NCBI GenBank assembly: GCA_017451385.1
Contig: JAFSPS010000042.1
Coordinates: 62,001 to 126,000 of the forward strand
Length of the DNA stretch: 64,000 nucleotides
Reading direction: 5' to 3'
Origin: Bacteroidales bacterium
GTDB taxonomy: Bacteria > Bacteroidota > Bacteroidia > Bacteroidales > P3
Positions 49,719 to 64,000 of this stretch are shown piece by piece; the stretch's first letter is position 1, and the number at the start of each line of letters is the position of its first letter. The notes under the pieces are model-generated. The model made no database searches and was not told the DNA's origin. It saw only the letters and a list, made by a program, of their open reading frames with translations. Position numbers and translations under genes: made by a program.

Positions 49719-50675
49719 TTATTTAATGAGGAAGCGGCGTGCGCCCTGTGAGGGCTCTGCATACTGTTTCCACAGTTGTTCGTTCTCCGCTTTGAAAAGC
49801 TTTTCATTAAATTTGACTCCCGCCTTGGGGGCTTTCCATGTAGCCACCGTCTGGCCTTGGTAGGTGATGGCCTCTGCATCACCCATAGCGAGCTTCACCT
49901 GCTCTTCGAGAGCTGCCTTGCGTTCGTCGAGTGCTGCGATTTCTTTCTTGACCTCTTTGAGGTCGAGAACCGACTGCATCACCTCATCGCTAATCTCTAT
50001 GGATTTGCCCTCAGTGTGCTTAGCGTACTTCGCCAGAACATCCTGAACGTTGATAGCCTCAGGTTCTTTCTTGCCGAGTACGTTGTCAGTCCAGAAGCGT
50101 TCCACCTCGCTGATGAGCCATGAGGCGAAGTCTGGAACCACATCAATATCTATGTGTCCGAACTGGAATCCGGCCATCATCCATGCGAGGGAGCCATGCT
50201 GGTAGCCTGCGACTGCGAGTTGGTATTGCACTTGGCAGAACCAATGCTTTGGGATGTCGTTAGGGTCGATAACGAGGTTGGTGGTCTTGCATTCAAGTAT
50301 TCCTTTATTCTGCTCAGCGTTCTTGCCATGTTTTAGTCCGTCGCCGTCCACCCAGAAGGTGCGGTCGGGGGACACTTGTAGGAAGGGCCTTTCGTCGTCA
50401 CGGATGAGCCAGTCGCCTGCGCTGCGGGCAATAACCTGTCGGCCGGTAGTGTCGCTCCAATACTGTGCGACAGCGTCCTCGCACCAATGGCCACGCTTCA
50501 TGGCTTGGTTCTCTTCTGTCGGTTCGTCCATACCCAGTTTCTTGCGCCAAAGCTGGTATGGTGTCTGCCACGGGTTGAGCCCCACGATGCTGGCCACCTC
50601 GGAGCTTCCCATTCCGCTTTTGCGGAGTTCCAACCACTCTTCGCGAGTGGCTGGTCTGATGATTGTTGTACTCAT
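49719..50675 (-). CDS. YqaJ/lambda-exonuclease-type recombinase
   Basis: 318 residues. The RecB-like nuclease motifs are present: GMGSSEVASIVGLNPWQTPY (start), MKRGHWCEDAVAQYW (Glu), LQVSPDRTFW (Asp) and GILECKTTN (Glu-x-Lys) near residue 128. It degrades one DNA strand to give 3' single strands for annealing, working with RecT (51576-52559). The C-terminal third is helical. It starts 13 bp after the previous gene in the early operon. Confidence 0.88.
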   Translation of the reverse strand: MSTTIIRPATREEWLELRKSGMGSSEVASIVGLNPWQTPYQLWRKKLGMDEPTEENQAMKRGHWCEDAVAQYWSDTTGRQVIARSAGDWLIRDDERPFLQVSPDRTFWVDGDGLKHGKNAEQNKGILECKTTNLVIDPNDIPKHWFCQVQYQLAVAGYQHGSLAWMMAGFQFGHIDIDVVPDFASWLISEVERFWTDNVLGKKEPEAINVQDVLAKYAKHTEGKSIEISDEVMQSVLDLKEVKKEIAALDERKAALEEQVKLAMGDAEAITYQGQTVATWKAPKAGVKFNEKLFKAENEQLWKQYAEPSQGARRFLIK

Positions 50676-50687
50676 AGATTATTTGTT

Positions 50688-50906
50688 TTAAGATTTGAAA
50701 AATGATTTTGAATAATAATTGCATTCTCTCGGCTTGTTCAAGAAGATGTGAGGCTTAAGGTCGCCGCAGTCGCTCGTGCCTCTCGCGCACGTCCCCATGA
50801 AATACTCGCCTGTGTCGTTGCTGAACGACAGTCCGCTGGTGTCGCGCGTGCAGTGACGGCAGTCGCAGCAGAACACTCGTTGGATAGGTCTTTCAGTCTT
50901 TGACAT
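50688..50906 (-). CDS. Small Cys-rich phage protein
   Basis: 72 residues from ATG 50906 (MSKTERPIQRVFCCDCRHCT). Six Cys in VFCCDCRHCTRD and MGTCARGTSDCGD suggest a zinc ribbon. A longer frame starting at 50960 overlaps the previous gene and is less likely. It is next to the exonuclease, so a role in recombination is possible. Confidence 0.6.
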   Translation of the reverse strand: MSKTERPIQRVFCCDCRHCTRDTSGLSFSNDTGEYFMGTCARGTSDCGDLKPHIFLNKPRECNYYSKSFFKS

Positions 50907-51162
50907 TGCTTGATTTCTCTGATGAGTTATCAGGGATAAGTTCTTCTGCGACGATAGCATTATATAACATTCGTTTGAATGATTCGTTTTCCCTTATACC
51001 AGCGACAATAGCGGATAATAAATCGAGTTTAGACCCACCTATCATAAGGTGCGTTTCTCCATTATCCGTAAGCACACTAAGTACAGCACGCCCCGAACCC
51101 TCATGAGACCATTCTTGAAGAAGCTCCTCGGCCTGCATCAATTTGTTTTCTTTTGTTTCCAT
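50893..51162 (-). CDS. Small hypothetical phage protein
   Basis: 89 residues: METKENKLMQAEELLQEWSH, RAVLSVLTDNGETHLMIGGS, then IRENESFKRMLYNAIVAEEL. A mixed alpha/beta domain, not recognised. It overlaps the Cys-rich gene by 14 bp, a translational-coupling arrangement. Confidence 0.65.
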   Translation of the reverse strand: METKENKLMQAEELLQEWSHEGSGRAVLSVLTDNGETHLMIGGSKLDLLSAIVAGIRENESFKRMLYNAIVAEELIPDNSSEKSSNVKD

Positions 51163-51208
51163 GTGTTTTAATTTTTTTAGATTGTTTTACTTTTGTCCTG
51201 CTTTTTTA

Positions 51209-51400
51209 TTAGAGAAGCCCTTTTCTTTTGAGGACGTTCAAGACCGTGCCCACAGAGCAGTGGGCAGCAACGGCTATGTGATAGTAGAGTGCCGTGATGT
51301 TCACGGCATCTTTTTTCTTTCTCCTATACAAGGAGATAATTTTTCTATCCCTTGTATTTCGAGCCATCTGTGATGGTGTCAGGATTTCATTATTCTTCAT
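51209..51400 (-). CDS. Small helix-turn-helix-like protein
   Basis: 63 residues: MKNNEILTPSQMARNTRDRK, then YYHIAVAAHCSVGTVLNVLK, where VAAHCSVGTVLNVLKRK looks like a helix-turn-helix recognition pair. It may be a regulator of the operon. A multi-branched RNA-like element (51421-51530) lies 20 nt before its ATG. Confidence 0.6.
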   Translation of the reverse strand: MKNNEILTPSQMARNTRDRKIISLYRRKKKDAVNITALYYHIAVAAHCSVGTVLNVLKRKGLL

Positions 51401-51420
51401 TCTTTTCTCTCTTTTGTTAG

Positions 51421-51530
51421 AGCCGTGGCAGGGTTCGGTACCTGCTCACCCAGGCTTTAAGGACGTACCATGCTGATGTCCAGCAATGGTGTGAGTAAAG
51501 TTCCAGCATTCTCCTGCTGGTGGCACGGCT
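51421..51530 (-). ncRNA. Multi-branched structured leader
   Basis: A closing stem AGCCGTG (51421-51427) with CACGGCT (51524-51530) encloses three hairpins: CCAGCA/TGCTGG (51503-51508 with 51515-51520, 6-nt loop), TGCTG/CAGCA (51471-51475 with 51481-51485, extended by CCA/TGG around one bulge) and CCTG/CAGG (51441-51444 with 51451-51454). The same stretch could instead encode a 41-residue peptide (51417-51542). It lies 20 nt before the gene at 51400. Confidence 0.55.
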
Positions 51531-51575
51531 TCCACCCCTCATATACCTTGTTATAATGGAGGAGGGGTTGGTGGG

Positions 51576-52559
51576 TTATTGTTGTTCAAAGAGCGTGTTG
51601 GGTTTTATTGCATTGTCCGATTCGGATTTTCCGATGGGTTCAGGAGTAATCTGAATCTGATGTTCATCAACCTCAGTAAAAGAAGCATCAATGGTTCGGT
51701 CCTCGGGTGCAGTAAGAGTGCTGTCGCCCTCTATATCCTTGGCCATGCTGTCGGCCATCTCGATGGACAGGTAGCCGTATTTGGACAGCATTAGACGCAC
51801 TACCGTCTTTAATGCCATAGAGTGGAAGTTTCCCAGCCACCCGACCTGCTTACTATTGGGGTCAAACGGCTGAGCTGCCAGCTGTTCAAGTTTCTCTGCG
51901 GTAGTGGTGTGGCTGATGCCCTTGGAGTAGCGCTTGGCGTGAGCTGCCATTTCAGACACGCTCATATAGAGCGTTTTTCTGAACCCGTTAATGAGTTCCT
52001 CATAGCAGAAGTAGCCAATGATTTTATCGGATTTTTTTTCTCCGGAGAAATCCACCTCGCCCGTGAGCTTGTTCACGAGCTTTAACTCACCCTCATATAC
52101 CACGTCGGAGTTCAAGACTTTATATTGCCCTGAACGCATTGCGAGTTGGATGTAGCCCTTATAGCCTATCTGGAACGTGGGCTCCGGCACCTTTATCCAG
52201 TTTCCATTGATATCTTGCTTACTATTATTGTAAACAATTATATATGCGAACCCTAACTGTTTATTGATGGGGAGGCGGAGTGTTGCCGCCTTCAGTGCCT
52301 CTGCCACCACTTGCGATGGGTTGCACTGTTGCAAAGACGAATCGCTGTTATACAGGTCGATTATGGAGGCGACAAATGTATCGCTGTATTTACCCAGAGC
52401 GTTTCGGAACTGCTCGGTTACACTGTCAGCGCGGAGCATATTTTTAAGGCTTGCCTTGCGGTCCTTGACCGTGGTGGCTACCGCCGTGGTGGCGGTGTTC
52501 TGTGTGGCCTGCGCCATGACGGCGGCGGCCATCTTTTGAGATTGAGATTGTGTTTCCAT
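51576..52559 (-). CDS. recT: RecT-family single-strand annealing protein
   Basis: 327 residues from ATG 52559 (METQSQSQKMAAAVMAQATQ); a start at 52625 is unlikely as it precedes the normal family N-terminus. The core SLKNMLRADSVTEQFRNALG, CNPSQVVAEALKAATLRLPI and GFAYIIVYNN is diagnostic of RecT. It coats single strands and anneals homologous DNA, working with the YqaJ exonuclease. The C-terminus is acidic. It is the second gene of the early operon to carry a recognised function. Confidence 0.93.
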   Translation of the reverse strand: METQSQSQKMAAAVMAQATQNTATTAVATTVKDRKASLKNMLRADSVTEQFRNALGKYSDTFVASIIDLYNSDSSLQQCNPSQVVAEALKAATLRLPINKQLGFAYIIVYNNSKQDINGNWIKVPEPTFQIGYKGYIQLAMRSGQYKVLNSDVVYEGELKLVNKLTGEVDFSGEKKSDKIIGYFCYEELINGFRKTLYMSVSEMAAHAKRYSKGISHTTTAEKLEQLAAQPFDPNSKQVGWLGNFHSMALKTVVRLMLSKYGYLSIEMADSMAKDIEGDSTLTAPEDRTIDASFTEVDEHQIQITPEPIGKSESDNAIKPNTLFEQQ

Positions 52560-52560
52560 T

Positions 52561-52857
52561 TTAATAATTGTATTTAGATTTATAAATTTTGAGGGCCTTG
52601 TCGGTATCGATGACACGCTTTGCACCGACTTGGGAGATAGCCGCGTCGATGATGCCGCTCTTGATGATGCGGTTAGCGGTTGAGCGGGAGCAGTTGAATA
52701 ACTGCATTACGCCCGGTATGCCGTATAGGTAGCGCGGCAAATCGGCGCGCGTTACCTCGGCTGCATCGCGCTCCGCCAGCACCTGCTGCACGGCGGAGCG
52801 GACAACAGACTGCAGGTCGGCAAGCGTGATGTCTATTATTCTCGTAGATGTTTCCAT
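52561..52857 (-). CDS. DUF3853 family protein
   Basis: 98 residues. An N-terminal coiled segment (LADLQSVVRSAVQQVLAERD) is followed by an excisionase-like helix-turn-helix (GIPGVMQLFNCSRSTANRII, then AISQVGAKRVIDTDKALKIY), which is the DUF3853 layout. Members are common in Bacteroidales phages and transposons and probably bind DNA. It overlaps the next gene's stop by 1 bp (TAATG). Confidence 0.85.
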   Translation of the reverse strand: METSTRIIDITLADLQSVVRSAVQQVLAERDAAEVTRADLPRYLYGIPGVMQLFNCSRSTANRIIKSGIIDAAISQVGAKRVIDTDKALKIYKSKYNY

Positions 52858-53003
52858 TAGACAACCTCCACGTCTTCGATTAATACTTCAATGCCGTTGT
52901 TACGGCAGAAATTCACGAGACTACTCATAGTCTCAAATTCATAATTGATACCCTCGTGGGTCATGCGGATAACATCATCCGCAATTTTTACTTTTGGTTT
53001 CAT
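52857..53003 (-). CDS. 48-residue phage protein at the start of the early operon
   Basis: MKPKVKIADDVIRMTHEGIN, then TMSSLVNFCRNNGIEVLIED and VEVV. A balanced alpha/beta small domain. Its TAA overlaps the ATG of DUF3853. A tRNA-like element (53039-53106) lies 36 nt before its ATG. Confidence 0.65.
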   Translation of the reverse strand: MKPKVKIADDVIRMTHEGINYEFETMSSLVNFCRNNGIEVLIEDVEVV

Positions 53004-53038
53004 GACTTTTTGTGTTTTGGGTTAGTAATATTAATTGG

Positions 53039-53106
53039 GAGCAGGAGAGGGAGTCGAACCCTGATGGTGGGAGGTATGGGAGGACACCAGCGACCGCGCC
53101 CTGCTC
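53039..53106 (-). ncRNA. tRNA-like structured element
   Basis: A 7-bp acceptor-like stem GAGCAGG (53106-53100) with CCTGCTC (53045-53039) encloses a T-arm-like hairpin on the + strand AGGGAGTCGAACCCT (53048-53062; loop contains the reverse of TTCGA) and a TGGTG/CACCA stem (53065-53069 with 53085-53089) with a 15-nt loop. No normal D-arm or anticodon stem is present, so it is not a canonical tRNA. It lies 36 nt before the 48-residue gene. Confidence 0.5.
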
Positions 53107-53113
53107 GTGGTGA

Positions 53114-53554
53114 TTATTCTTCCTCTTTGACAAGGGAGAATTTTATGTCGTCTTCGTTGGAAGCATCGACGAGGATGCAGTACTCGTCGTCTATGGGGTA
53201 GCCCTCATCGAGGAAAAATGCCCAATCGTGGAGGAAGTAGGTGGCCAAGCTGTCGTTCATGGCCACGGGGATTGTGGATATAGTATTTATGGACTCGTGG
53301 TCGAACTGGTCTCCCTCGTTGGCGTAGAGCATCACCCACTGGTTGTTGGTAGCGGGCGAGGGGGCCACAACGCCCTCGATAAGTTCTGGGGCGAGATAGG
53401 CACGGTATGACCGTGGCGCGGTCATAGCCGTTACGGCTTGTGCCACCTCGGCAGTGGTCTTGGTGTCGTTGTCGTTGTCGGGGGTCTGGCTGTTGCCGCA
53501 TCCGCAGATGAGGGCGGCGATGGCGATTGTCATAAATGTTTTTTTTATATCCAT
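53114..53554 (-). CDS. Phage-encoded lipoprotein beside the repressor
   Basis: 146 residues from ATG 53554 (MDIKKTFMTIAIAALICGCG). The lipobox LICGC gives Cys at residue 18 or nearby; a longer frame from 53632 is rejected. The mature part is acidic (WVMLYANEGDQFDHESINTI). Its own promoter (53603-53633) diverges from the repressor, so it is expressed in lysogens. Candidate for superinfection exclusion or surface change; function unknown. Confidence 0.7.
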   Translation of the reverse strand: MDIKKTFMTIAIAALICGCGNSQTPDNDNDTKTTAEVAQAVTAMTAPRSYRAYLAPELIEGVVAPSPATNNQWVMLYANEGDQFDHESINTISTIPVAMNDSLATYFLHDWAFFLDEGYPIDDEYCILVDASNEDDIKFSLVKEEE

Positions 53555-53602
53555 AAATTTTATTTGTGTATATTTGTATAAGTTTTTGAATGAAATTTGA
53601 TG

Positions 53603-53633
53603 CAAAGATAATACATTTTGGTAAACTGACAAA
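53603..53633 (-). promoter_or_regulatory. Leftward promoter between lipoprotein gene and repressor
   Basis: On the - strand TTTG (53633-53630) and TATCTTTG (53610-53603), spaced exactly 19 bp, an ideal Bacteroidetes promoter, 49 bp before the lipoprotein ATG. It probably drives the lipoprotein and possibly the early operon. Confidence 0.75.
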
Positions 53634-53660
53634 ATAAAATTTACCTTTTTAGTAAAAATA
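53619..53660. promoter_or_regulatory. Candidate repressor operator with three half-sites
   Basis: GGTAAA (53620-53625), TTTACC (53639-53644) and AGTAAA (53651-53656) form two overlapping inverted repeats (GGTAAA/TTTACC; TTTAC/GTAAA). They overlap the -33 region of the leftward promoter and lie before the repressor gene. Binding is inferred. Confidence 0.45.
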
Positions 53661-53693
53661 TTTATAAAGCTTTAATAATCAATTTCAAAAAAA

Positions 53694-54314
53694 ATGAAAA
53701 AAAAAGAAGAAACAAATAAAGTAGATAAGGAATTATCCTATCGCTTATCCCAAATTAGGAGATTTTTGTGCAACGATAGCAATGGTGTTTTTGCTGATAG
53801 GCTAAAAAAAAATAAGACCTATGTTAGTCAGATATGCAATGGAAGTAAAAGTGTGGGAAAAAAAATATTAGAAGAAATTTTAGCAGCATTCCCCGAGGTG
53901 TCGCGTACATGGCTAATGGTTGGAGAGGGAGAAATGTGTATTGAACAGGGAAAAACTGGAGGTGGTAATTTGTTGACAAAAGAGACGAAAGACCATTTGC
54001 TGGAAAATTATTTATCCCATTACCCTGACGCAAATCATCCATACGACTACAAGAGATTTTTGCTATATGCAATAAAGTGTATTGAAGATGAGTGTTATAT
54101 GGATTATGATACAATAAGAAATAAGGTAAGTGCTACGACTTTAAAGCGTTTGGAAATTGCTTACATATGGATAGAACTGACTTATCATTATATGTTGGAG
54201 GAGTATTCTATGGGGGCTGATTCTGAGCGCATCAACGAGCTGAAAGGATATAATGACCTGCTGCGTGAAAAGGTGGCGAACCTTGAAGCAGAGTTGCAAC
54301 GTGAAAGGGAATAA
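53694..54314 (+). CDS. CI-like phage repressor (XRE helix-turn-helix)
   Basis: 206 residues. LSQIRRFLCNDSNGVFADRL and KKNKTYVSQICNGSKSVGKK form a Cro/CI helix-turn-helix; RTWLMVGEGEMC follows. The C-terminal half ends in a helical dimerisation-like segment (RINELKGYNDLLREKVANLE). No LexA/CI peptidase Ser-Lys pair is apparent, so RecA-driven cleavage is uncertain. It diverges from the lipoprotein gene across the operator. Confidence 0.85.
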   Translation: MKKKEETNKVDKELSYRLSQIRRFLCNDSNGVFADRLKKNKTYVSQICNGSKSVGKKILEEILAAFPEVSRTWLMVGEGEMCIEQGKTGGGNLLTKETKDHLLENYLSHYPDANHPYDYKRFLLYAIKCIEDECYMDYDTIRNKVSATTLKRLEIAYIWIELTYHYMLEEYSMGADSERINELKGYNDLLREKVANLEAELQRERE

Positions 54315-54469
54315 GTGTCATCGTTGCAGGCGAGGACGAGCACGGAAGTTATATCTCTGTAAAATGCTATATTTGATATTCAAAAAAATCTAAAATAGAA
54401 AAAAATAGAAAATGATTTTTTTAGAAAAAGAAACAACTTATTGTAATTTAAGCAAATAAAATTTTTCAA

Positions 54470-54688
54470 ATGGATACATTAAAACTTTTCCCTTTTGAAA
54501 TGGATGATTACGTCAGATGGATGACGGAGGACGAGCAGCGGCGACTTGCAGAGAGCATTGGGAGTGGCATGCTGTATGAGATAAGTGCCTATCGGCTGGC
54601 GGTGTTGCGGGCGCACAAGGAGAGGGAGAGCCGGAGCGAGGCTGATGAGCAAGTGGAAGAGGCGATGCGAAAAGCAGTGAGACGATAA
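54470..54688 (+). CDS. Small hypothetical phage protein upstream of integrase
   Basis: 72 residues: MDTLKLFPFEMDDYVRWMTE, helical and charged, ending EEAMRKAVRR. No family recognised. It lies 7 bp before the integrase gene, so it may act with it, for example as an accessory DNA-binding factor. The 155-bp gap before it is AT-rich and holds TATATTTG (54368-54375) without a good partner box. Confidence 0.6.
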   Translation: MDTLKLFPFEMDDYVRWMTEDEQRRLAESIGSGMLYEISAYRLAVLRAHKERESRSEADEQVEEAMRKAVRR

Positions 54689-54695
54689 GCATGCG

Positions 54696-55964
54696 ATGAT
54701 AGTAGCCTACAGATACAAGTTCGTCCTGCATAAGGGCAGGGGCGATGCGTGCAGCGTTTATCTGCGAGTGACGTTGAGGGGACAGTCTCCGGTAGATTGT
54801 GCCACGGGCGTGATGGTGCAGAGAGAAGCGTGGGATGGAGAGCGGCAGAGGATAATAGGGAGGGACGCTCAGGCGCAAAGAGACAACGGCCATCTACGGC
54901 GTGTGGAGCAGTCCATTTTGGGGCTTTTCGAGCGGTACGAGTACGTTGATAAGGCTGTGCCGACGATAAGCGATTTACGGGCAGATATTGCGGTGGCACT
55001 GGGGAGGTATGATAAGACAGATGCGGAGCGTAAGACTGCGGCGGACGACCTGTATGCGGTGATGGATGAGTTCAGGAGCAAGTCGCGCATACAAAATAAT
55101 TGGAGCAAAGGGACCGATGGTTTTTTTGGCGTGCTGCGCAACCACCTGTCGGCGTATAGTCCGGTAATACATCTGTCGCACATTGACGAGGAGATGGTGC
55201 AGGGATTCTTACTGTACCTTACCGCTAAGGGCTATCATAATACTTATATTGCCAAGTTAATATCCCTGCTGCGTTGGTTTCTGCGCTGGGCGGCGCAACA
55301 TGGGTATTATCATGGCAGCCTGCATGAGACGTACAAGCCAAGGCTTAAAGGGTCGCACTATGAGACGAAAGAGGTCATATATCTAACCCTTAACGAGCTA
55401 AAAGCGATAGAATCCTATCAATTTGATAGCAACCAAGGCACTATGGAGGCAGTGCGAGACGTGTTCATTTTCTGCTGCTACACTGGGTTGCGCTACTCTG
55501 ACGCTGCCAAGTTGCAGCGTAGCGACATAGTGGATGGACACATCAACGTCATCACACGCAAGACATCAGACCGCCTGACCATCGAACTTAACAAGCACTC
55601 GCAGGCCGTGCTGGACAAGTATAAGGATGCGGATTGGCTAAAAGGCCGCGCCCTGCCGGCCATCAGCATCCAGGAGAGCAACGCCTACCTCAAGTGGATT
55701 GGTCGGCTGGCAGGCATAGAGGAGCCTATACGCATTGTGTTTTACAATGGTGCTGAGCGCCATGAGGAGGTGCATCCCAAGTATGAGTTGCTGACGACGC
55801 ATTGTGCGAGGCGCACGTTCGTCGTCACGGCGTTGCAGCTGGGCATCCCTGCGGAGGTCATTATCAAGTGGACCGGCCACAGTGACTTTGCGGCCATGAA
55901 GCCGTACATCAAGATAGTGGATGAGCTGAAGGCGCGCAATATGGCCAAGTTTGATGCGATTTAA
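54696..55964 (+). CDS. Tyrosine recombinase (phage integrase)
   Basis: 422 residues. An N-terminal arm-binding domain (residues 1-95), a SAM-like core-binding domain (about 110-215) and a catalytic domain. The catalytic residues are Arg266 (GLRYSDAAKL), His369-x-x-Arg372 (HCARRTF), His395 (GHSDF) and Tyr404 (MKPYIKIVDEL). It inserts and excises the phage. Its 3' end overlaps the opposite-strand gene by 4 bp. No att site was located near it. Confidence 0.93.
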   Translation: MIVAYRYKFVLHKGRGDACSVYLRVTLRGQSPVDCATGVMVQREAWDGERQRIIGRDAQAQRDNGHLRRVEQSILGLFERYEYVDKAVPTISDLRADIAVALGRYDKTDAERKTAADDLYAVMDEFRSKSRIQNNWSKGTDGFFGVLRNHLSAYSPVIHLSHIDEEMVQGFLLYLTAKGYHNTYIAKLISLLRWFLRWAAQHGYYHGSLHETYKPRLKGSHYETKEVIYLTLNELKAIESYQFDSNQGTMEAVRDVFIFCCYTGLRYSDAAKLQRSDIVDGHINVITRKTSDRLTIELNKHSQAVLDKYKDADWLKGRALPAISIQESNAYLKWIGRLAGIEEPIRIVFYNGAERHEEVHPKYELLTTHCARRTFVVTALQLGIPAEVIIKWTGHSDFAAMKPYIKIVDELKARNMAKFDAI

Positions 55965-56146
55965 CCATGCCGCAGGATGAGCAGTGCGAGCTCGATGGCG
56001 TGGAGACAGCGTGCTGTCTTGATGGCTGCATACTGCTCTTGTGGTGATGCTGCGTTGTCAATATTCCATTCGCTGTCGTTGTACTTGCGCCACGTTGCAT
56101 CAAGACTGTCGATGATTTCTTTTTTTTCTTTTTCAATATTTGTCAT
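55961..56146 (-). CDS. 61-residue protein under a switch-like leader
   Basis: MTNIEKEKKEIIDSLDATWR, then NDSEWNIDNAASPQEQYAAI and KTARCLHAIELALLILRHG. A helical, acidic protein, not recognised. The start at 56146 is chosen because a longer frame (56257) runs through the structured leader and has no support. It overlaps the end of the integrase gene. It may tune integration or lysogeny. Confidence 0.6.
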   Translation of the reverse strand: MTNIEKEKKEIIDSLDATWRKYNDSEWNIDNAASPQEQYAAIKTARCLHAIELALLILRHG

Positions 56147-56148
56147 CT

Positions 56149-56281
56149 TCTTACATTGAGGAAATAAATAAGCCTTTGGGCAGGTGTTCCTCGGCTGTAA
56201 GATACCGTGCAGGCGTTTCCGTTGCTGCCACCACCAAAGGCAATAGACAAATATCAACCGAGTTGCCTCGGCTGTCTTACA
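56149..56281 (-). ncRNA. Structured leader with three mutually exclusive pairing partners
   Basis: On the - strand TGTAAGA occurs at 56281-56275 and 56155-56149, and TCTTACA at 56202-56196; the middle copy can pair with either outer one. The last copy is 2 nt from the ATG at 56146. Inside are CCGAG-GCAA-CTCGG (56271-56258, GNRA tetraloop) and GCCTTTGG/CCAAAGGC (56241-56234 with 56179-56172). A TATCTTTG box (56300-56293) places a start site near 56286. Pairing was not computed. Confidence 0.6.
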
Positions 56282-56311
56282 TTTAGGAGTTGCAAAGATA
56301 CGAAAAAAGGA

Positions 56312-56620
56312 CTAATCTTCGCCAGAGAGTTGGCGGAGGCGGTTCTCGATGGTGATACGGGTGTCCTCGGCTTGCAGGTCTATCTGCTGGCTCTGCATCT
56401 TGGGCATGATGTAGTTCATTAACTTTTCGGCGACGATAAGACGCTCTTTGGGTTCGAGGGCGGCGAAGTCGTCAGCCATGCTGCCGCTTTTACTGTATTG
56501 GTCTAAGAGGGTAGCAATGACTTCTTTTGTTGTCGCCGTAGTCCTATTGGGTGTTCCTTTTTGTCTGCCACCAGTCTTAGGTCGCTTGGCGGCGGGCTTG
56601 TTCTTTTCATCAGCTTTCAT
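56312..56620 (-). CDS. Small-terminase-like or DNA-binding phage protein
   Basis: 102 residues. Opening MKADEKNKPAAKRPKTGGRQ and KGTPNRTTATTKEVIATLLD resembles the N-terminal helical part of terminase small subunits and DUF5681-type proteins; EPKERLIVAEKLMNYIMPKM is helical. The identification is weak, as no large terminase is in the window. The start diverges from the rightward module. Confidence 0.5.
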   Translation of the reverse strand: MKADEKNKPAAKRPKTGGRQKGTPNRTTATTKEVIATLLDQYSKSGSMADDFAALEPKERLIVAEKLMNYIMPKMQSQQIDLQAEDTRITIENRLRQLSGED

Positions 56621-56632
56621 AATTAACAGATA

Positions 56633-56664
56633 TTGTGTACGGGCAAAGATAGGATATTACCTTT
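56633..56664 (+). promoter_or_regulatory. Candidate promoter of the rightward virion module
   Basis: TTG (56633-56635) and TACCTTTG (56657-56664), 21 bp apart, fit the Bacteroidetes pattern, 41 bp before the ATG at 56705. A TATCTTTG on the other strand (56651-56644) overlaps it. Confidence 0.5.
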
Positions 56665-56704
56665 GCAAATAGCATTATATCTATTAACAATAAAAAAAAA
56701 CAAT

Positions 56705-57226
56705 ATGGGTATTATAGGGTCAGCCATAGGGGCAGCCGGAAGCGTCATAGGAGGAGCGATGGCAGCCAAAGCGCAGAAAGAAAATCTTGAGACGCTGAGC
56801 GGCATGCGTGATGCTGTGGCAGCACGCCAGCAGCAGAACCAAGACTGGTTTGACAAAGAGTATAACGCTGATGCCACGCAGCGTGCCGATGCGCAGAATA
56901 TGATACGGAGGACCGAGGAGGCCATCAAGACGCGTGCCAAGCAGGCGGCTGGTACTGCGGCAGTGATGGGCGGCAGTGAGGAGAGTATGGCTGCTGACAA
57001 GGCCGCCAACGCCAAAGCTCTCACGGAGACTGCGAGCAATATCACAGCAGCGGCAGACGCGCGCAAAGACAAGGTGCAGACTCAATTTATGTCACGTCAG
57101 GATGCTCTCGACGGCACCATGCGAGATTTGCAAGATAAGGAGATGGCGGCTAACAACGCCAAAGCCCAGGCCATATCAAGTGCGATAAAGGGCGTGACTG
57201 ATGCGGCAGGAGTTCTGCCATTCTAA
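56705..57226 (+). CDS. Small phage virion-type protein
   Basis: 173 residues from ATG 56705 (MGIIGSAIGAAGSVIGGAMA); a frame from 56633 is an extension. The N-terminus is Gly/Ala-rich and hydrophobic, followed by Gln/Ala/Asp-rich helices (AARQQQNQDWFDKEYNADAT). This pattern occurs in internal or ejected virion proteins of tailed phages. It starts the rightward virion module. Role is inferred. Confidence 0.65.
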   Translation: MGIIGSAIGAAGSVIGGAMAAKAQKENLETLSGMRDAVAARQQQNQDWFDKEYNADATQRADAQNMIRRTEEAIKTRAKQAAGTAAVMGGSEESMAADKAANAKALTETASNITAAADARKDKVQTQFMSRQDALDGTMRDLQDKEMAANNAKAQAISSAIKGVTDAAGVLPF

Positions 57227-57245
57227 CGTAAAAAAATACAATACT

Positions 57246-58439
57246 ATGGGATGGTTGAAGAATATGTTTGCAAAGCAGCAGACAAATGCGCCCGATGAGC
57301 CAGAAAAGTCAAAAAAAGATGATAGCACGGTACAGCAGACAATGCAGACTGCCAGCGGAGAGAGTAGTGCTACTGCTACCCAGCAGGGACAACCCCAGGT
57401 CTCAACTGATACCGATGATACATATCCGTCGGCTAACAAGTCAGCAATACCTACAAGTTATAAAGAGGTGCAAGGACAGCCGAGTATAACTGATATTGAG
57501 ATAGACCGTAGTATCTATCCCCAGCCACAGGGGATGATACAGCGAGGCAGCGGGCAGCATGATGATACAGCGGACAAGGATGCAACAGATATAAGTTCAC
57601 CTCATGCAAGCACACGACATAGGGACGCATTTAAGGCGATGTACGGAGAGACAGAGCCAGAGAAGATGGGTAATCTTGGATATACGTCGTGGCAGGAGTT
57701 TGTAGAGGATGGCAAGAGGCGCAAGACCGATGAGGCGGCACGCCTGCGCCGTGACCACCTATGGAATCAGATAGGTGATGCCATCAGTGCTGCTGCCAAC
57801 CTCTACTGGACTACGCAAGGAGCGCCCAACGCCTACGACCCCACCAAGGGTATGAGTGCCAAGACTAAGGAGCGTTGGGACAAGCTTAAGGCAGAGCGCG
57901 ACAAGCAGATAGACGAGTACCGCAAAGGCGCATTGAGAGCGGCAGAACAAGATGCGGCTGCTGATGTCAAAGCTGAGGACCAGAGGATAGCGCGCGAAAA
58001 TAATAGGCAGATTAGGGAACGAAACGCCTCAGAATCAAGAGCAAGAATAGATAATTATTATTCACAGATAGAAACACGAAAAAAAGAACAGGAATTAAAA
58101 CAAAAAAAATATGAGTTCCAACAACAAAATGCTGAAAATTTGCAAAAATTAAAAGAAGGTAGATTATCAATCGAACAAGCAAGATTGGCGATTGAAAAAG
58201 CGTATAAAGAAGGCCTAATAGATATTAGAGAGCGAGAACTGCTACTAAAACAATCCGATGAGTTTTCAACAACGACCAAGACGGATGAGAAAGGTCGCAC
58301 CACGACAACGACAACAACCAAGAGCAAGGCAGGCAGTGAAGGCACTGCCGCGCCGTCGGGAGGAGGAGCGAGCGGAGGAGGCAAGAAGTCAAGTCCGACA
58401 GGCGGAGGCAAGAAAAAAGCAAGTCCGACCGCAAAATAA
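57246..58439 (+). CDS. Phage protein with coiled coil and Gly/Ser-rich tail
   Basis: 397 residues from ATG 57246 (MGWLKNMFAKQQTNAPDEPE). Residues 1-130 are disordered and Gln/Thr-rich, 150-230 globular (GYTSWQEFVEDGKRRKTDEA), 240-340 a long charged coiled coil (QNAENLQKLKEGRLSIEQAR) and the end is Gly/Ser/Lys-rich (SGGGKKSSPTGGGKKK). The coiled-coil codons (58000-58260) are markedly AT-rich compared with the rest. It lies 19 bp after the previous gene. Probably a virion component. Confidence 0.65.
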   Translation: MGWLKNMFAKQQTNAPDEPEKSKKDDSTVQQTMQTASGESSATATQQGQPQVSTDTDDTYPSANKSAIPTSYKEVQGQPSITDIEIDRSIYPQPQGMIQRGSGQHDDTADKDATDISSPHASTRHRDAFKAMYGETEPEKMGNLGYTSWQEFVEDGKRRKTDEAARLRRDHLWNQIGDAISAAANLYWTTQGAPNAYDPTKGMSAKTKERWDKLKAERDKQIDEYRKGALRAAEQDAAADVKAEDQRIARENNRQIRERNASESRARIDNYYSQIETRKKEQELKQKKYEFQQQNAENLQKLKEGRLSIEQARLAIEKAYKEGLIDIRERELLLKQSDEFSTTTKTDEKGRTTTTTTTKSKAGSEGTAAPSGGGASGGGKKSSPTGGGKKKASPTAK

Positions 58440-58473
58440 AACATCCAAAGTCAAACAATAAAAAGCAATAAAC

Positions 58474-61400
58474 ATGCCCACACCACAAAAAGATAAAATC
58501 CGCAAAGTATATGACGCTCTCTTGGAGTCTTATGACATGGAGTCCTATGATGAGTTCGAGAGGAAGATGATAAACGATACCGACGGAGCGCGTCGCAAGG
58601 TGTATGATGCTCTTGCAGAGGATTACGACATGGAGCCGTATGCCGAGTATCTTGCTAATATGGGGATGAGCGAGACTGCTACCGCCGCGCAGCCACAGAA
58701 TGCGCAGCCATCGGCGCAGACGAAACAAACGTATGTGTCGCCCTATATAGCGGCACCAAGCGGGACGACAGACGGAGAGCCGACAATGTATCGGACTAAT
58801 GAGTTCGGCATTATCCAAGAGAGCAAGCAGGAGAAGGCAGAACGTGAGCAGGCGGCTGCAAGGCGGAGACAGGCGGCTGCACCGACAGTGCGGCAAGGCG
58901 AGGGCAAACCACAGACCCAAGCACAGCCAGAGGGCGAGAACGACACTTTGACTGAGACTGTCGGCAAGGTTATGGACATCGTGATAGACCGCAAGATAGC
59001 CAACGGCGAGGTGCTGACGCCAGAGGAGCAGCAGCGGCTGGCGAGCAGGGAGTTTGACACCATGCCGCTCACGACGCAGTGGGCTGTAAACTATGGCGGC
59101 GTTAAGACATCCGCGATTTCCGACTTTACGCCTGTCGGCGGCAACGGGGCAACACCTAACCCTTACATGGTGACGCTGCCTTCTGACCCGATGCAGGGCG
59201 AGTATGACAAGAACATAAAGGCGTTCTACGAGCGATTGAGAAAGGCTGGCTATGAGCTGGCGGACTATAACGAGTTTGCCGAGGCGTTGCGAGGCGGCGC
59301 GTTAGGGCAGCTTTACGAGCAACTGACGAGTGACGGCGTGGTGAAGGGGCTTGAGAGCATGGAGGCACTGACGAAGAGCATGGGTCTTGACACGCCGTAT
59401 ATGCAGGAGAAGCGCGACAATCTGGACTTCGGCTTTGAGCGCAGCGCGATGTATATGAGTATGCCGGCGGCTATAAAGACGAAGATGGCGAGAGGCGAGG
59501 ACCTGAACGACGAGGAGAGAGCCATCGTGGTGGCGGCACGCGGCAGATACCGCGCAGCGAGAAAGGCGAAGATAGACGAGGAAGAGAACATCAAGCTTGC
59601 AAGAGAGGCTACGAGGGAAAATGTAAAGACTAAATTAGAAGAGATAGAGGGACGCAAGGGCTTGGTGCGTTCGCAGATAAAGGAAGTAGAGGACAGGCAG
59701 AAGCAGGAGTTAGCAGCGCAATATGAGAAGGAGGGTTACCATAGCGATGAGTATGGCCATTATGATAATTATACAGAAGATTCCCGCGAAATGGCGCAGC
59801 TGCGTGGCAAGCATTATAACGAGACTGCTGCGATGCGTGGCGAAATATCCTTATACAATGCCGCCCAGCGCAAGCTGAGCGATGCGCAGCATCTTATAGA
59901 CGAGGCAGACCACAACGCACGAGGCGGCTTTGGCAGCAAGTTCGTGGCTGGAGCGGCGCGAGGATTCGGGCAGAAGCTGATAGACATCCGCACATGGTCG
60001 TTCGGTATTGTCGATATGGTAGAGGGCGGCATGCTGAGGACCGCCTTGGAAAAGTACGAGGCTGGCAAGGAACTGACCGAGGCAGAACAGACGTATCTTG
60101 ACGCATTAGCCATAGAGACGGCGACGCAGATGTATTTCAAGGAGTTTGTGGGGAGAGGCTACACGGCAGGGCAGGTTACGGCGGAGTCGCTGCCGTTCAT
60201 GCTGGAAATGATGATAAACCCTGCTTCGGCGATAGGGAAAAGCACGCAGGCAATGTTCGCCCGTTATGCTTTGCGACGCTTCGCGGTAAAGAAAGGTGCT
60301 GATACTGCCAAGCGTCAGGCGGCGATAGCGACATTAAGAGGCTTGGAGCAGTCGGGGCTGAGAAACGCATCGAAAGAGGCGTTGAAGGCAGGGTTTAAGA
60401 CTGCAGGAACAGGCGGCAAGGTCGCACAGGTATTAGGACGAGTGTTAGGCGATGCGGCTGGTGCCGGCGTGATGGCTGGCACGACGGGCGCGGCACGTGT
60501 GGCTGCTGACGCAGGCGAGAGAATGGTAGGCGACATTATGCCTACCTTTGACCGAGACGGCAATATACACTACGGCGGCCGCAAGGACTATGAGAAAGAC
60601 GAGGGTAAGGCCTATCTGAAAGCCTTTGCCGCTACGGCTATAGGGTATTTCTCCGAGATGATGGGCGCGTACAACGGTCTTGTGCCTGATGCCGCCAAGG
60701 CTATGATGGCGAAGGGTGCAGCCCGCTTTGCCGAGAGATACGGCAAGGCGGCAGGCTATAAGCGCGTCATGGCGATGATGGGCAAGATAAAGCAGAGCGA
60801 TGCGGCGCAGGTGCTTGGCAATTTTGCTGATAAGACGCAGTGGCATGGTGCTTTTGGCGAGTTTGTGGAAGAGGTAGAGGACGGATTTCTCAACGCCATC
60901 ATCGTTGGTGACCAGACGCTTGACGACGACCCCGACACGGGACTGTTCAATAAGAGCAACCTCATAGATACGGGATTGGGTGTTAGCATAATGTCGTTTG
61001 TCATGGGTGCCGCCAAAGGTGGCGTATATAGTTATCAGCTTGCCAAAGCCAAGAGGCTTCAAGGCAGGGCTGCCGAGATTGCCGAGCAGGCTTTTGGCGA
61101 CGATGACCGCTGGAATGGTATTGCCACGCAGATTGACAATGCCGTCCCCGACGAGCTGGCCGAAGTGATAGAGAAGCAGCTGGAAGACCCGAATCTTACT
61201 ATGGCGCAGCGCAAGGCTATATTTGAGTATGGCAGGGCGCGCGGCATAATGATGGCCGTGGACGAGGTGGCGCAGCATGAATATACGGAGGATGACGAGT
61301 ACGGCATGGCGTACAGGGCTCTCAGCACTAACATAGGCGCGATGCAGGAGCAAGGCTACGGCACGACAGACGCGGAGGGCAGGGCACGCGCATATAAGGC

Positions 61401-64000
61401 GTTGAGCGAGATATACCCGAAGTTTGTAGAGCAGTACGGCAAGGAAGAGGCGCAGAAACTAATATATGCAATAAATAACAGTGAATTGCCGCTGATAGAC
61501 GTAAGCCAGTACGAGCAGGGCGGCACATATAGGGAGTTTGTTGATGCTGTGGCGACATCTACGGCAGCGGCAGACCGTTATGATGACGACCTCAACGATA
61601 GGTTTAAGGAGGTGCGCGAGAGGCTTGACGGGATGAAGAACAAGCAGAGCGGGCGTATTATCCCCGTGCGTATGAAAGACAATCCCGACAAGCGGGTGTA
61701 TGTGATAGACGGGCATGTGGAGCGAGCAGAGGACGGCACCGTAGTGAAAGATGCGAGCGATGCCGACCTGGTAGTGTTCGACCCAGCCACAGGGGAGCAG
61801 AGCATGCGTTCTGTTGCCGATGTGGTGTCGGCAGAAGAGGAGATAGATGCCGAGGCGGCATACTCTATAGAGACTGGCGAGATACAAGCCGCTATGGAAG
61901 AGGCGGAGCGTGCTGCCGAGCGCGGCATAGAAGCGATAGACCATGCCGCAAGTCTTGACAAGACGAAGCCGATAGATATAGCGACCAGCGACGGGGGGGT
62001 GATTCAGGTAGAGGTTATAGGCGAAGAGCAGGGCGATGACGGGCTGACTTACGTGAGAGTGCGTGAGGTAGGCGGCAAGGAGGAGATGAGCCTGAGAGAG
62101 GACGTGCTGAGCGAGCTGGCGTTGCAGGCCAACGAGCAGCAGGCTGCCAACGAGCAGGAGGAAGAGGGCAAGGGAGAGTACCGAGGTGTGTTTGCCGCGG
62201 GCAGCAGACGGCGTATGATGGATGCCTTCGGCACGTTCCACGATATAGAGATAGTGAGCGACAACAATGACGGCAGTGTGATGGTGCGTGAGGAAGGCGT
62301 AGAGTACCCATTGGCGAAAGCCAAGATACTTGACGGCATAGAGCGTGCCGGACGTTATGACGCTACACATAGGACGAGCCGTTATAATCAGGGCGACGAA
62401 CTATGGCTTGACGACGGAGAGGGCGAGCATCGTGTGCAGGTGTTAAGTGTGCAGGCCGACGGCACTGTCAGTGTTTACGACCCAGAGACGGGCGAGATTG
62501 TGGATATTGACGAAAAGAGTCTTGACGAGGCGGTAGAGGCGACGAGAGCGAAGTACAAGGTATCGCTTGATGCTGACAGCAGTTATGATGGGCTGAACGA
62601 CGAGGGCGAGAGTGTTAAGATGACCATACAAGGAGAGAGTGTTAATGAAGGTGGAGAGACGATGTATGATGTGGTGCTTACCGATGGCGACGGGAAGGAA
62701 AGTCTGGTAACTCTCAGCGAAGCCGACATACAGCATTATGTAGATAACGAGCGTCATGCGCGGATGGGAGCCGACAAGGCGGCAAAGGCTACGGCTGACG
62801 CTATGCCGCTGACGGAGGAGGGGAAGCCTGACTACGAGGCGGCGGATGTGGCGCGGACGGTGCGTTATGTGTATGAGGAGAGCGGGCTTGACGAGGAGGT
62901 GGCGGACCAGTTTGTGGAGAACAAGGGCAAGGAGGCGCAGGGCGCGCTGGAGAAGGTGATGAGGAAAGAACCTAAGATAGGCACTGACATAGACGAGTAC
63001 AAGGCGGCACACGAGCGGTGGGCGGCAGAGGTTGAGGCGGCGCGGAAGAGCAAGGAGTACTGGGATGCCGTAAAGGCCGAGCGAGAGAGGGTGAAGACGG
63101 AGAAGGTGCGTGTGGCTGACGATAACGCATATAAAGCCGCCGTGGCTCAAGGACGTACAGAGGCTTTCGAGGAATATCTGAACAGCTACCCCGACGGCAT
63201 CCACGCCGAGGAGGCGAAGCAGATGATAGCGTTTGCCAAGCGCAAGGGACACAAGCAGATTATGGCAGCAAAGAAGAAGTTGCAAGAGGCTGGCGACGTG
63301 ATGGAGAAAGCGCAGGCCATCAGTGACTTCATATACAATGTCTATCATGGTGCTGAGGCCACGGAGGAGGAGAATGCGATGTTTGACGAGGCGCGGCGAG
63401 AGCTTGCCTCACAAGGCTACGAGATAGTGGATGTGTTAGGCCAGCCGTATCATGAAGGCATGAAGGCGCAGGCGCAATTCGTTACTGATACGAGTCTGCC
63501 TGTAGGCACGGCGGTTATCACGGGAGTGCGCAAGCCGCAGGTGAACAAGGACGGCAGGATGGTGCAGGCGGCAGAGGTCACTGTGACGCAGGCGGCGTTT
63601 GGCGACCAAGGAGAAGTGGACGAGGCTATCAGGAAGGCGAGGGCAGGCGACAAGGATGCGCAGGCGCTGCTTGACGAGTGTGGCATAGAGTGGGTAGATA
63701 AGGATGTGCCGGACTGGAAGGCGGATAAGGCATCCGATGCGCGAGCAAGGGGCTACCGCATGGCTGACGGCGTGCGCTATGACCGACAGCAGCCCACGGA
63801 GGGCGTGTATGGTGATGAGGTGGATATAGACTTCACAACGCAAGAGAAGCCAGTGAGAGGGCGCTACAAGGTAGTAGAAGCATCGAGTGTGCAGCCGTCA
63901 CACACGTCAGGACATAGAAATGTGTATCACTTCATCAGCGAGGCACAACCTAAGGAACGTACCGATAAGACCTCAGAGGCAGAGAGTACGAGGATAGCGT
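58474..64000 (+). CDS. Giant virion-injected/polyvalent-type protein, 5' part
   Basis: Open for at least 1842 residues and past the window edge; no stop in frame. The N-terminus has two copies of a 25-30-residue repeat (RKVYDAL, YDMESYDEF / YDMEPYAEY). Residues about 500-850 are hydrophobic and helical (GAARGFGQKLIDIRTWSFGI, SLPFMLEMMINPASAIGKST), with large Asp/Glu-rich regions later. Near the edge VEASSVQPSHTSGHRNVYHF and ISEAQPKERTDKTS match the DdrB-like ParB type found in polyvalent proteins. Ejection with phage DNA is inferred. Confidence 0.7.
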   Translation, partial: MPTPQKDKIRKVYDALLESYDMESYDEFERKMINDTDGARRKVYDALAEDYDMEPYAEYLANMGMSETATAAQPQNAQPSAQTKQTYVSPYIAAPSGTTDGEPTMYRTNEFGIIQESKQEKAEREQAAARRRQAAAPTVRQGEGKPQTQAQPEGENDTLTETVGKVMDIVIDRKIANGEVLTPEEQQRLASREFDTMPLTTQWAVNYGGVKTSAISDFTPVGGNGATPNPYMVTLPSDPMQGEYDKNIKAFYERLRKAGYELADYNEFAEALRGGALGQLYEQLTSDGVVKGLESMEALTKSMGLDTPYMQEKRDNLDFGFERSAMYMSMPAAIKTKMARGEDLNDEERAIVVAARGRYRAARKAKIDEEENIKLAREATRENVKTKLEEIEGRKGLVRSQIKEVEDRQKQELAAQYEKEGYHSDEYGHYDNYTEDSREMAQLRGKHYNETAAMRGEISLYNAAQRKLSDAQHLIDEADHNARGGFGSKFVAGAARGFGQKLIDIRTWSFGIVDMVEGGMLRTALEKYEAGKELTEAEQTYLDALAIETATQMYFKEFVGRGYTAGQVTAESLPFMLEMMINPASAIGKSTQAMFARYALRRFAVKKGADTAKRQAAIATLRGLEQSGLRNASKEALKAGFKTAGTGGKVAQVLGRVLGDAAGAGVMAGTTGAARVAADAGERMVGDIMPTFDRDGNIHYGGRKDYEKDEGKAYLKAFAATAIGYFSEMMGAYNGLVPDAAKAMMAKGAARFAERYGKAAGYKRVMAMMGKIKQSDAAQVLGNFADKTQWHGAFGEFVEEVEDGFLNAIIVGDQTLDDDPDTGLFNKSNLIDTGLGVSIMSFVMGAAKGGVYSYQLAKAKRLQGRAAEIAEQAFGDDDRWNGIATQIDNAVPDELAEVIEKQLEDPNLTMAQRKAIFEYGRARGIMMAVDEVAQHEYTEDDEYGMAYRALSTNIGAMQEQGYGTTDAEGRARAYKALSEIYPKFVEQYGKEEAQKLIYAINNSELPLIDVSQYEQGGTYREFVDAVATSTAAADRYDDDLNDRFKEVRERLDGMKNKQSGRIIPVRMKDNPDKRVYVIDGHVERAEDGTVVKDASDADLVVFDPATGEQSMRSVADVVSAEEEIDAEAAYSIETGEIQAAMEEAERAAERGIEAIDHAASLDKTKPIDIATSDGGVIQVEVIGEEQGDDGLTYVRVREVGGKEEMSLREDVLSELALQANEQQAANEQEEEGKGEYRGVFAAGSRRRMMDAFGTFHDIEIVSDNNDGSVMVREEGVEYPLAKAKILDGIERAGRYDATHRTSRYNQGDELWLDDGEGEHRVQVLSVQADGTVSVYDPETGEIVDIDEKSLDEAVEATRAKYKVSLDADSSYDGLNDEGESVKMTIQGESVNEGGETMYDVVLTDGDGKESLVTLSEADIQHYVDNERHARMGADKAAKATADAMPLTEEGKPDYEAADVARTVRYVYEESGLDEEVADQFVENKGKEAQGALEKVMRKEPKIGTDIDEYKAAHERWAAEVEAARKSKEYWDAVKAERERVKTEKVRVADDNAYKAAVAQGRTEAFEEYLNSYPDGIHAEEAKQMIAFAKRKGHKQIMAAKKKLQEAGDVMEKAQAISDFIYNVYHGAEATEEENAMFDEARRELASQGYEIVDVLGQPYHEGMKAQAQFVTDTSLPVGTAVITGVRKPQVNKDGRMVQAAEVTVTQAAFGDQGEVDEAIRKARAGDKDAQALLDECGIEWVDKDVPDWKADKASDARARGYRMADGVRYDRQQPTEGVYGDEVDIDFTTQEKPVRGRYKVVEASSVQPSHTSGHRNVYHFISEAQPKERTDKTSEAESTRIA

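Follow-up and report, generated by a model that had tools for sequence, protein, structure and literature searches.

A c4-2 RNA with two complementary target sites in the leader of a small open reading frame in a Bacteroidales prophage

The leader of a 61-aa ORF in a Bacteroidales prophage very probably encodes a C4-type antisense RNA, c4-2, that would control this ORF, with a second copy of its target at the start of the transcript. The elements of the leader span 56300 to 56146 on the minus strand of the window, by which we mean the whole stretch of 64,000 nucleotides that was analysed. Judged by its sequence, the leader is a conserved regulatory RNA and a member of the known c4-2 family, and by analogy it most likely works like C4. 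Sequence shows the match to the family, the pair of complementary segments, both copies of the target, the promoter-like box and, in relatives, the joint change of loop and targets. We infer that one promoter gives one transcript, that c4-2 is released from it and that it acts in trans.

Results

Elements of the leader

The first-pass annotation of this DNA had described three heptamers, the middle one of which could pair with the first or with the last. All three were found on the minus strand, at 56281-56275, 56202-56196 (TCTTACA on this strand) and 56155-56149, and the other elements that it had listed, namely a GNRA hairpin, a long helix, two CAGCCGAGG repeats, a -7 box and the ATG at 56146, were all in place. 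A second pairing piece had been overlooked: AGGA at 56191-56188 pairs with TCCT at 56288-56285 and with TCCT at 56162-56159, and TCCT precedes the first and the last heptamer. The features are listed below in the order of the minus strand, each with the evidence on which it rests.

56293..56300, minus: -7 promoter box TATCTTTG of the TAnnTTTG type (sequence; box counts in relatives)
56275..56288, minus: upstream target copy TCCT-AAA-TGTAAGA, a1b1-like (sequence; covaries with the c4-2 loop in relatives)
56274-56266 and 56197-56189, minus: two copies of CAGCCGAGG (sequence)
56255..56274, minus: GNRA-capped 8-bp hairpin with a T-rich tail, weakly terminator-like (pattern scan against shuffles)
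56170..56241, minus: c4-2 RNA (RF02944) with P1 helix, inner stem, GAAA hairpin and specificity hairpin (Rfam model and MFE fold)
56241-56234 and 56179-56172, minus: P1 helix strands GCCTTTGG and CCAAAGGC (sequence)
56196..56203, minus: specificity loop AUCUUACA, an 8-nt apical loop that contains the middle heptamer (MFE fold of c4-2 alone); the loop region at 56203-56196, read directly, is ATCTTACA
56188..56191, minus: AGGA next to the loop, left unpaired when c4-2 folds and complementary to the TCCT of both targets (sequence and fold)
56149..56162, minus: downstream target copy TCCT-CAA-TGTAAGA, a2b2-like (sequence; covariation in relatives)
55961..56146, minus: target ORF of 61 aa, its ATG 24 nt past the end of the c4-2 match (position; ORF list)

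The downstream target copy stops 2 nt short of the ATG at 56146. The -7 box at 56300-56293 is real, and it would place the start of the transcript at or just before the TCCT of the upstream copy. TGTAAGA alone is not rare in the window, where it occurs 5 times versus 6.7 expected. The bipartite pattern TCCT-N3-TGTAAGA without mismatch has exactly two sites in the 2,573,548-base genome, both in the leader and 126 nt apart; once one mismatch is allowed, the pattern is no more frequent in the genome than its reversed control (7 + 16 versus 28 + 18). The 161 nt from 56130 to 56290 were more stable than all 200 shuffles (z = -3.4).

The leader contains a c4-2 RNA

The first-pass annotation had seen no known riboswitch class in the leader and had suggested a search against Rfam, and this search placed the leader in a known family. 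RF02944 (c4-2, clan CL00128) matches at 56241-56170 on the minus strand over model positions 1-79 with 48 bits, the curated cut-off being 41. Among 4227 Rfam families it is the sole one over its cut-off in the 64-kb window, and the match is the only one to RF02944 in the whole genome. Riboswitch aptamer classes were considered and set aside, as none of them reaches its cut-off among these families, although an unknown ligand may yet play a part; a match to the 'drum' RNA (18.6 bits versus a cut-off of 43) was dismissed as chance.

The 72-nt c4-2 folded alone has an MFE of -27.8 kcal/mol and forms the helices of the family: P1, the inner stem, the GAAA hairpin and the specificity hairpin. In this fold the middle heptamer is exposed in a loop and AGGA is unpaired beside it. 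The full-length match, the helices, both hairpins and the AGGA stretch are shared with c4-2, and no structural difference from the family was found. What the window adds beyond the model is the two target copies, the position of the promoter and the small target ORF. Searched at E ≤ 10, with 150 of 178 first-look candidates scored, the genome of the window had no match to RF01695, the canonical C4 model of P1/P7.

Loop and target sites change in concert in relatives

With the genome of the window counted each time, RF02944 matched in 11 of 190 genomes of the family (8 over the cut-off), 16 of 393 of the order (15 over) and 11 of 395 of the phylum (10 over). The locus set held 56 loci including the window, and removal of the low-complexity locus L011 and of 14 near-duplicate arms left 41; 7 further matches from the phylum search came without a locus and lie outside the 56-locus counts. 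An exact complement of at least 7 nt to the address half was present in the locus's own upstream 100 nt in 31 of the 41 loci, versus 154 of 1640 swapped combinations; for the 60 nt downstream in the same locus the figures are 21 of 41 and 96 of 1640. Neither the upstream nor the downstream mean was reached in any of 5000 permutations. Duplex energies over 55 loci agree with the preference for the own site (0 of 2000 permutations).

Individual pairs were read in the 14 of the 41 loci that could be parsed, by a rule that is blind to the heptamer itself and takes the better of two offsets for own and swapped sites alike. At each site 96 of 98 cells pair, versus 57.8% and 58.5% when sites are swapped, and all seven heptamer positions show at least three Watson-Crick types. 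The unparsed loci comprise 18 without the expected loop/AGG pattern and 9 in which at least one of the two sites could not be recognised. The middle element can pair with either outer copy, as had been claimed, and the alignment of relatives proposed by the first-pass annotation does reveal compensatory change at the heptamers that keeps both pairings. It had also named heptamer change without compensation as evidence against its reading. Compensation is common and yet not universal: the match is shorter than 6 nt upstream in 4 of 41 loci and downstream in 13 of 41; hence a start-codon target is not found in every locus. Matches of at least 6 nt are present upstream in 37 loci and downstream in 28; since the upstream copy is the better conserved, it probably matters. 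In L016 and L027 the loop pairs well with the upstream copy but not with the stretch ahead of the ORF start; in these two loci function may lie with the upstream site.

The surroundings of the pairing sites are also shared. In 32 of the 37 loci with an upstream match of at least 6 nt, TAnnTT[T/C]G lies within 28 nt on the 5' side of that match, versus 32 of 1728 control windows. In 33 of 41 loci an ORF of at least 25 aa has its ATG 18-31 nt past c4-2, and the +24 of the window is the commonest distance. Relatives do not in general share the CAGCCGAGG repeats or the GNRA hairpin, as judged by eye and uncounted. In four loci of the same genus (L005, L006, L008 and L009) the address is a variant in which GTTCAA or GTCAA replaces TCCT, also by eye.

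A different helix was considered as a conserved feature and rejected. The leader stretch GATATTTGTC (56255-56246) can form a duplex with the opening codons of the 61-aa ORF (56144-56135), which is strong in the window (-12.0 kcal/mol) but not kept in relatives: over 34 loci own sequences average -4.98 versus -4.74 when swapped, a value reached in 1135 of 5000 permutations.

The target ORF and its surroundings

No relatives of the 61-aa protein were found in the 188 other genomes of the family or in viral contigs; that it is coding is suggested by position and analogy. Family searches with the 61-aa ORF and ten target ORFs of relatives gave nothing above any curated cut-off. Where target ORFs were found in relatives, 33 of 36 measure 51 to 105 aa and the others 29, 39 and 315 aa. 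The stop of the 61-aa ORF overlaps that of a convergent integrase, which adjoins it; an antirepressor is not next in line, and there is no icd/ant operon. The window otherwise has a prophage context, with a helicase loader, a replication initiator, RecE-like and RecT-like proteins, a repressor-like regulator and the integrase. A comparison with phages had also been suggested, and here window positions 50000-62000 gave no match in phage DNA records. From 58474 to 63999 the window is a single open frame of at least 1842 codons that runs past its end, part of the prophage and encoding a giant protein.

An upstream gene of 102 aa was examined as a fixed partner of c4-2 and was discarded, as a covariance-model search of 97 loci came back nearly empty. 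Of these loci 95 were from searches with the 102-aa gene or the integrase, including the best 80 of 250 viral relatives, and 2 were from a c4-2 pattern. Strong hits were confined to the 2 pattern loci and to L176, a locus at the same place as L002; L101 matched weakly, at 20.9 bits. In the pattern locus L058 the loop matches both sites by eye, and in L059 there is no clear downstream site by eye; both were excluded from the counts.

Chromosomal c4-2 modules in Flavobacterium

In genomes attributed to Flavobacterium, chromosomal c4-2 modules reach up to six per genome, and in 25 of the 28 c4-2 loci taken an ORF of at least 25 aa begins within 75 nt downstream. One such target is a 77-aa protein, whose family was used as the only query for a separate, protein-found set. 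The best 80 of its 324 relatives, which were kept, come from Flavobacterium, '[Flexibacter] sp. ATCC 35103' and a Flavobacteriaceae bacterium. A c4-2 was found directly upstream at E ≤ 0.01 in 71 of these 80 loci, with a search model drawn partly from Flavobacterium c4-2 copies. Among the remaining 9, one has a c4-2 at E 0.0036 in a smaller search, some have apparently decayed leaders and others have none that is recognisable. A model, R1, that came from an imperfect MAFFT alignment lacks the specificity hairpin and served only for finding copies.

Of the 80 protein-found loci, 60 were parsed and contain 26 distinct loops. When each loop is represented by a single locus, 24 of 26 pair over at least 6 nt at each site, versus 9.2% and 4.8% when swapped (0 of 5000 permutations). 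The 77-aa protein has a median dN/dS of 0.20, which indicates purifying selection; the value is from the 104 of 150 sampled pairs with dS of 0.1 to 1.5, drawn from 75 ungapped ORFs. Its predicted fold has three helices (pLDDT 81). This model had no match in the PDB at E ≤ 0.001, the best rows being uninformative, and the protein had no match in phage DNA records.

Seven putative Flavobacterium genomes have the module next to the same upstream neighbour (L029, L030, L033, L036, L040, L043 and L048), and in three genomes it lies between the same two neighbours (L032, L035 and L045). The seven same-site loci carry five addresses, TTCAAGA, TGCAAA, CTTCAAA, TGCAAGA and CTTCGAGA, some of which are one base apart. 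In each of them the loop, the upstream site and the downstream site agree over at least 6 nt, with a G-U pair in the downstream site of L043.

Within a genome, addresses are kept apart only in part. When sites were ranked by longest exact complement for 35 copies in 9 genomes, the copy's own site stood alone at the top for 25 copies downstream and 24 upstream; it was tied for 6 and 8, and exceeded for 4 and 3, respectively. Included among the 35 are L034, L051 and L053, which have a c4-2 with no target ORF downstream, L034 and L051 being in tandem; these could be orphan antisense RNAs or decayed copies. Nine Flavobacterium loci have a second c4-2 match, either just after the main one (L210, L213, L217 and L231, at about 1759-1850) or just before it (L222, L227, L228, L238 and L247, at about 1220-1307).

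Alternative readings of the leader

The first-pass annotation had picked out the correct elements and half of how they work together; its cis switch, with a start exposed by pairing to the first copy, and its statement that no known class matches are not supported. In a switch that acts only in cis, the middle heptamer would pair within its own transcript with the last copy, hiding the start, or with the first, exposing it, and a ligand or translation would be the trigger. The best fold of the full leader (-48.2 kcal/mol) does pair the middle with the last heptamer and covers the start region of the ORF. It nearly equals the fold in which c4-2 is intact (-47.4), a close competitor, so a bistable transcript is plausible and pairing in cis is conceivable as well. 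The exposing state fares worse: the fold with first and middle paired (-42.6) lies 5.6 kcal/mol above the best one, and the actual competitor is the self-contained c4-2 fold. As the conserved unit is a self-contained RNA that presents its address in a loop, and no riboswitch family reaches its Rfam cut-off, we consider a switch acting in cis only to be improbable. That the heptamers are chance repeats, or that a coding frame accounts for their conservation, is hardly credible. The lack of enrichment of TGTAAGA alone would suit chance, but the mismatch-free bipartite site is confined to the leader in this genome and the covariation contradicts this reading, with 0 of 5000 permutations. A coding frame, which the first-pass annotation had named as something that would tell against it, is not the source either, as the frames that enter the c4 region from the leader differ between relatives.

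Control of transcription deserves more weight, although it too is rather unlikely. Here c4-2 binding to the first target, or folding of the leader, would decide whether polymerase stops at the hairpin or at P1, and the short leader would serve as a sponge. The better conservation of the upstream copy (37 versus 28 of 41 loci) and its place shortly behind the -7 box are consistent with this, as are the terminator-like hairpin between the first target and c4-2 in the window, the GC stem with a T run at the same place in L005, L006, L008 and L009 (by eye), and, in 31 of 34 loci, four consecutive T within the stretch made up of the last 4 nt of c4-2 and the 8 nt that follow. However, the window is one of the 3 loci of 34 without such a T run, so that release by termination is less clear there, and its count of terminator-like hairpins is near the shuffle mean, the flag on the GNRA hairpin being 1 found versus 0.6 expected in the window scan. 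The pattern scan did not flag the hairpin of L006 on the plus strand, its loop of 9 nt being over the limit of 8. Flavobacterium leaders mostly have a short A-rich stretch between the first target and c4-2, as judged by eye and uncounted.

Discussion

We propose that the leader works as a C4-type antisense system in the following way. Transcription from the -7 box would yield, in order, the first target (TCCT-AAA-TGTAAGA), the small hairpin, c4-2, the second target and the ATG. The c4-2 segment is predicted to fold by itself and to present AUCUUACA in its loop beside AGGA. It may be released by processing, conceivably by RNase P as in P1/P7, or by termination at the P1 helix. Its AGGA and loop would then pair with the TCCT and TGTAAGA next to the ATG, in trans and possibly in cis, and this pairing would block translation of the 61-aa ORF during the quiet state of the prophage. 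The copy at the start of the transcript may be a second binding site that tunes the level of c4-2 or the fate of the leader; it may serve in attenuation, as a sponge or in control of release.

The closest parallel is C4 of phages P1 and P7. P1 has a second copy of the target upstream (a1b1). C4 is described in passages of PMC5320573 and PMC12197685 as an antisense RNA that is cut from a longer transcript and that binds its target message, through the a' and b' loops, at the ribosome-binding site and upstream of it. The leader in the window resembles it in anatomy, with two short segments complementary to the start region of the downstream gene. It differs in its target, which is a lone 61-aa ORF rather than the icd/ant operon, and in the RF01695 result given above. 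The name c4-a1b1 appears in a table of PMC2864571, and a passage of PMC8201110 has C4 and Icd take part in the control of Ant. According to a passage of PMC11897509, Icd of P1 is a cell-division inhibitor of 73 aa that acts on FtsZ; the c4-2 target ORFs recall it by size alone, which we take as a lead only.

A second parallel is found in Acinetobacter baumannii, where many copies of the C4 fold with variable address loops occur per chromosome, as stated in part of PMC5320573. The Flavobacterium c4-2 copies resemble these sRNAs in being multiple on the chromosome with varying addresses. The targets of the A. baumannii sRNAs are left open in that part of PMC5320573, whereas an ORF lies downstream of c4-2 in most Flavobacterium loci and, in the protein-found set, the loops covary with the sites.

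The c4-2 family was reportedly first described by Weinberg et al. in 2017. In the open-access literature that was searched, the scope of which does not include that defining paper, no described target for c4-2 was found. The name occurred there only in a Rfam release paper and in papers on prostate cancer, and no text joined 'c4-2' and 'c4 antisense'. The kind of RNA was already known; what appears to be new is the target rule of c4-2, shown by covariation, and the stand-alone modules of Flavobacterium.

Tentatively, c4-2 and its small protein might be a portable, antisense-controlled module of Bacteroidota prophages that in Flavobacterium has turned into a stand-alone, vertically kept chromosomal module. 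There, mostly different addresses would be rewritten in concert at the transcript start, the loop and the start codon, even at the same site across species, with the 77-aa protein held under purifying selection; the whole could be a toxin/antidote-like or immunity system with the small protein as effector. Since the many copies differ in address and their addresses change in a coordinated way, the system could also be a natural set of separate RNA regulators. The present results give a testable target rule for c4-2, in which the loop and AGGA face TCCT-N3 and the loop complement near the promoter and the start codon. They would extend C4-type control to the prophages of Bacteroidota, and they point to small proteins that may be under antisense control on Flavobacterium chromosomes.
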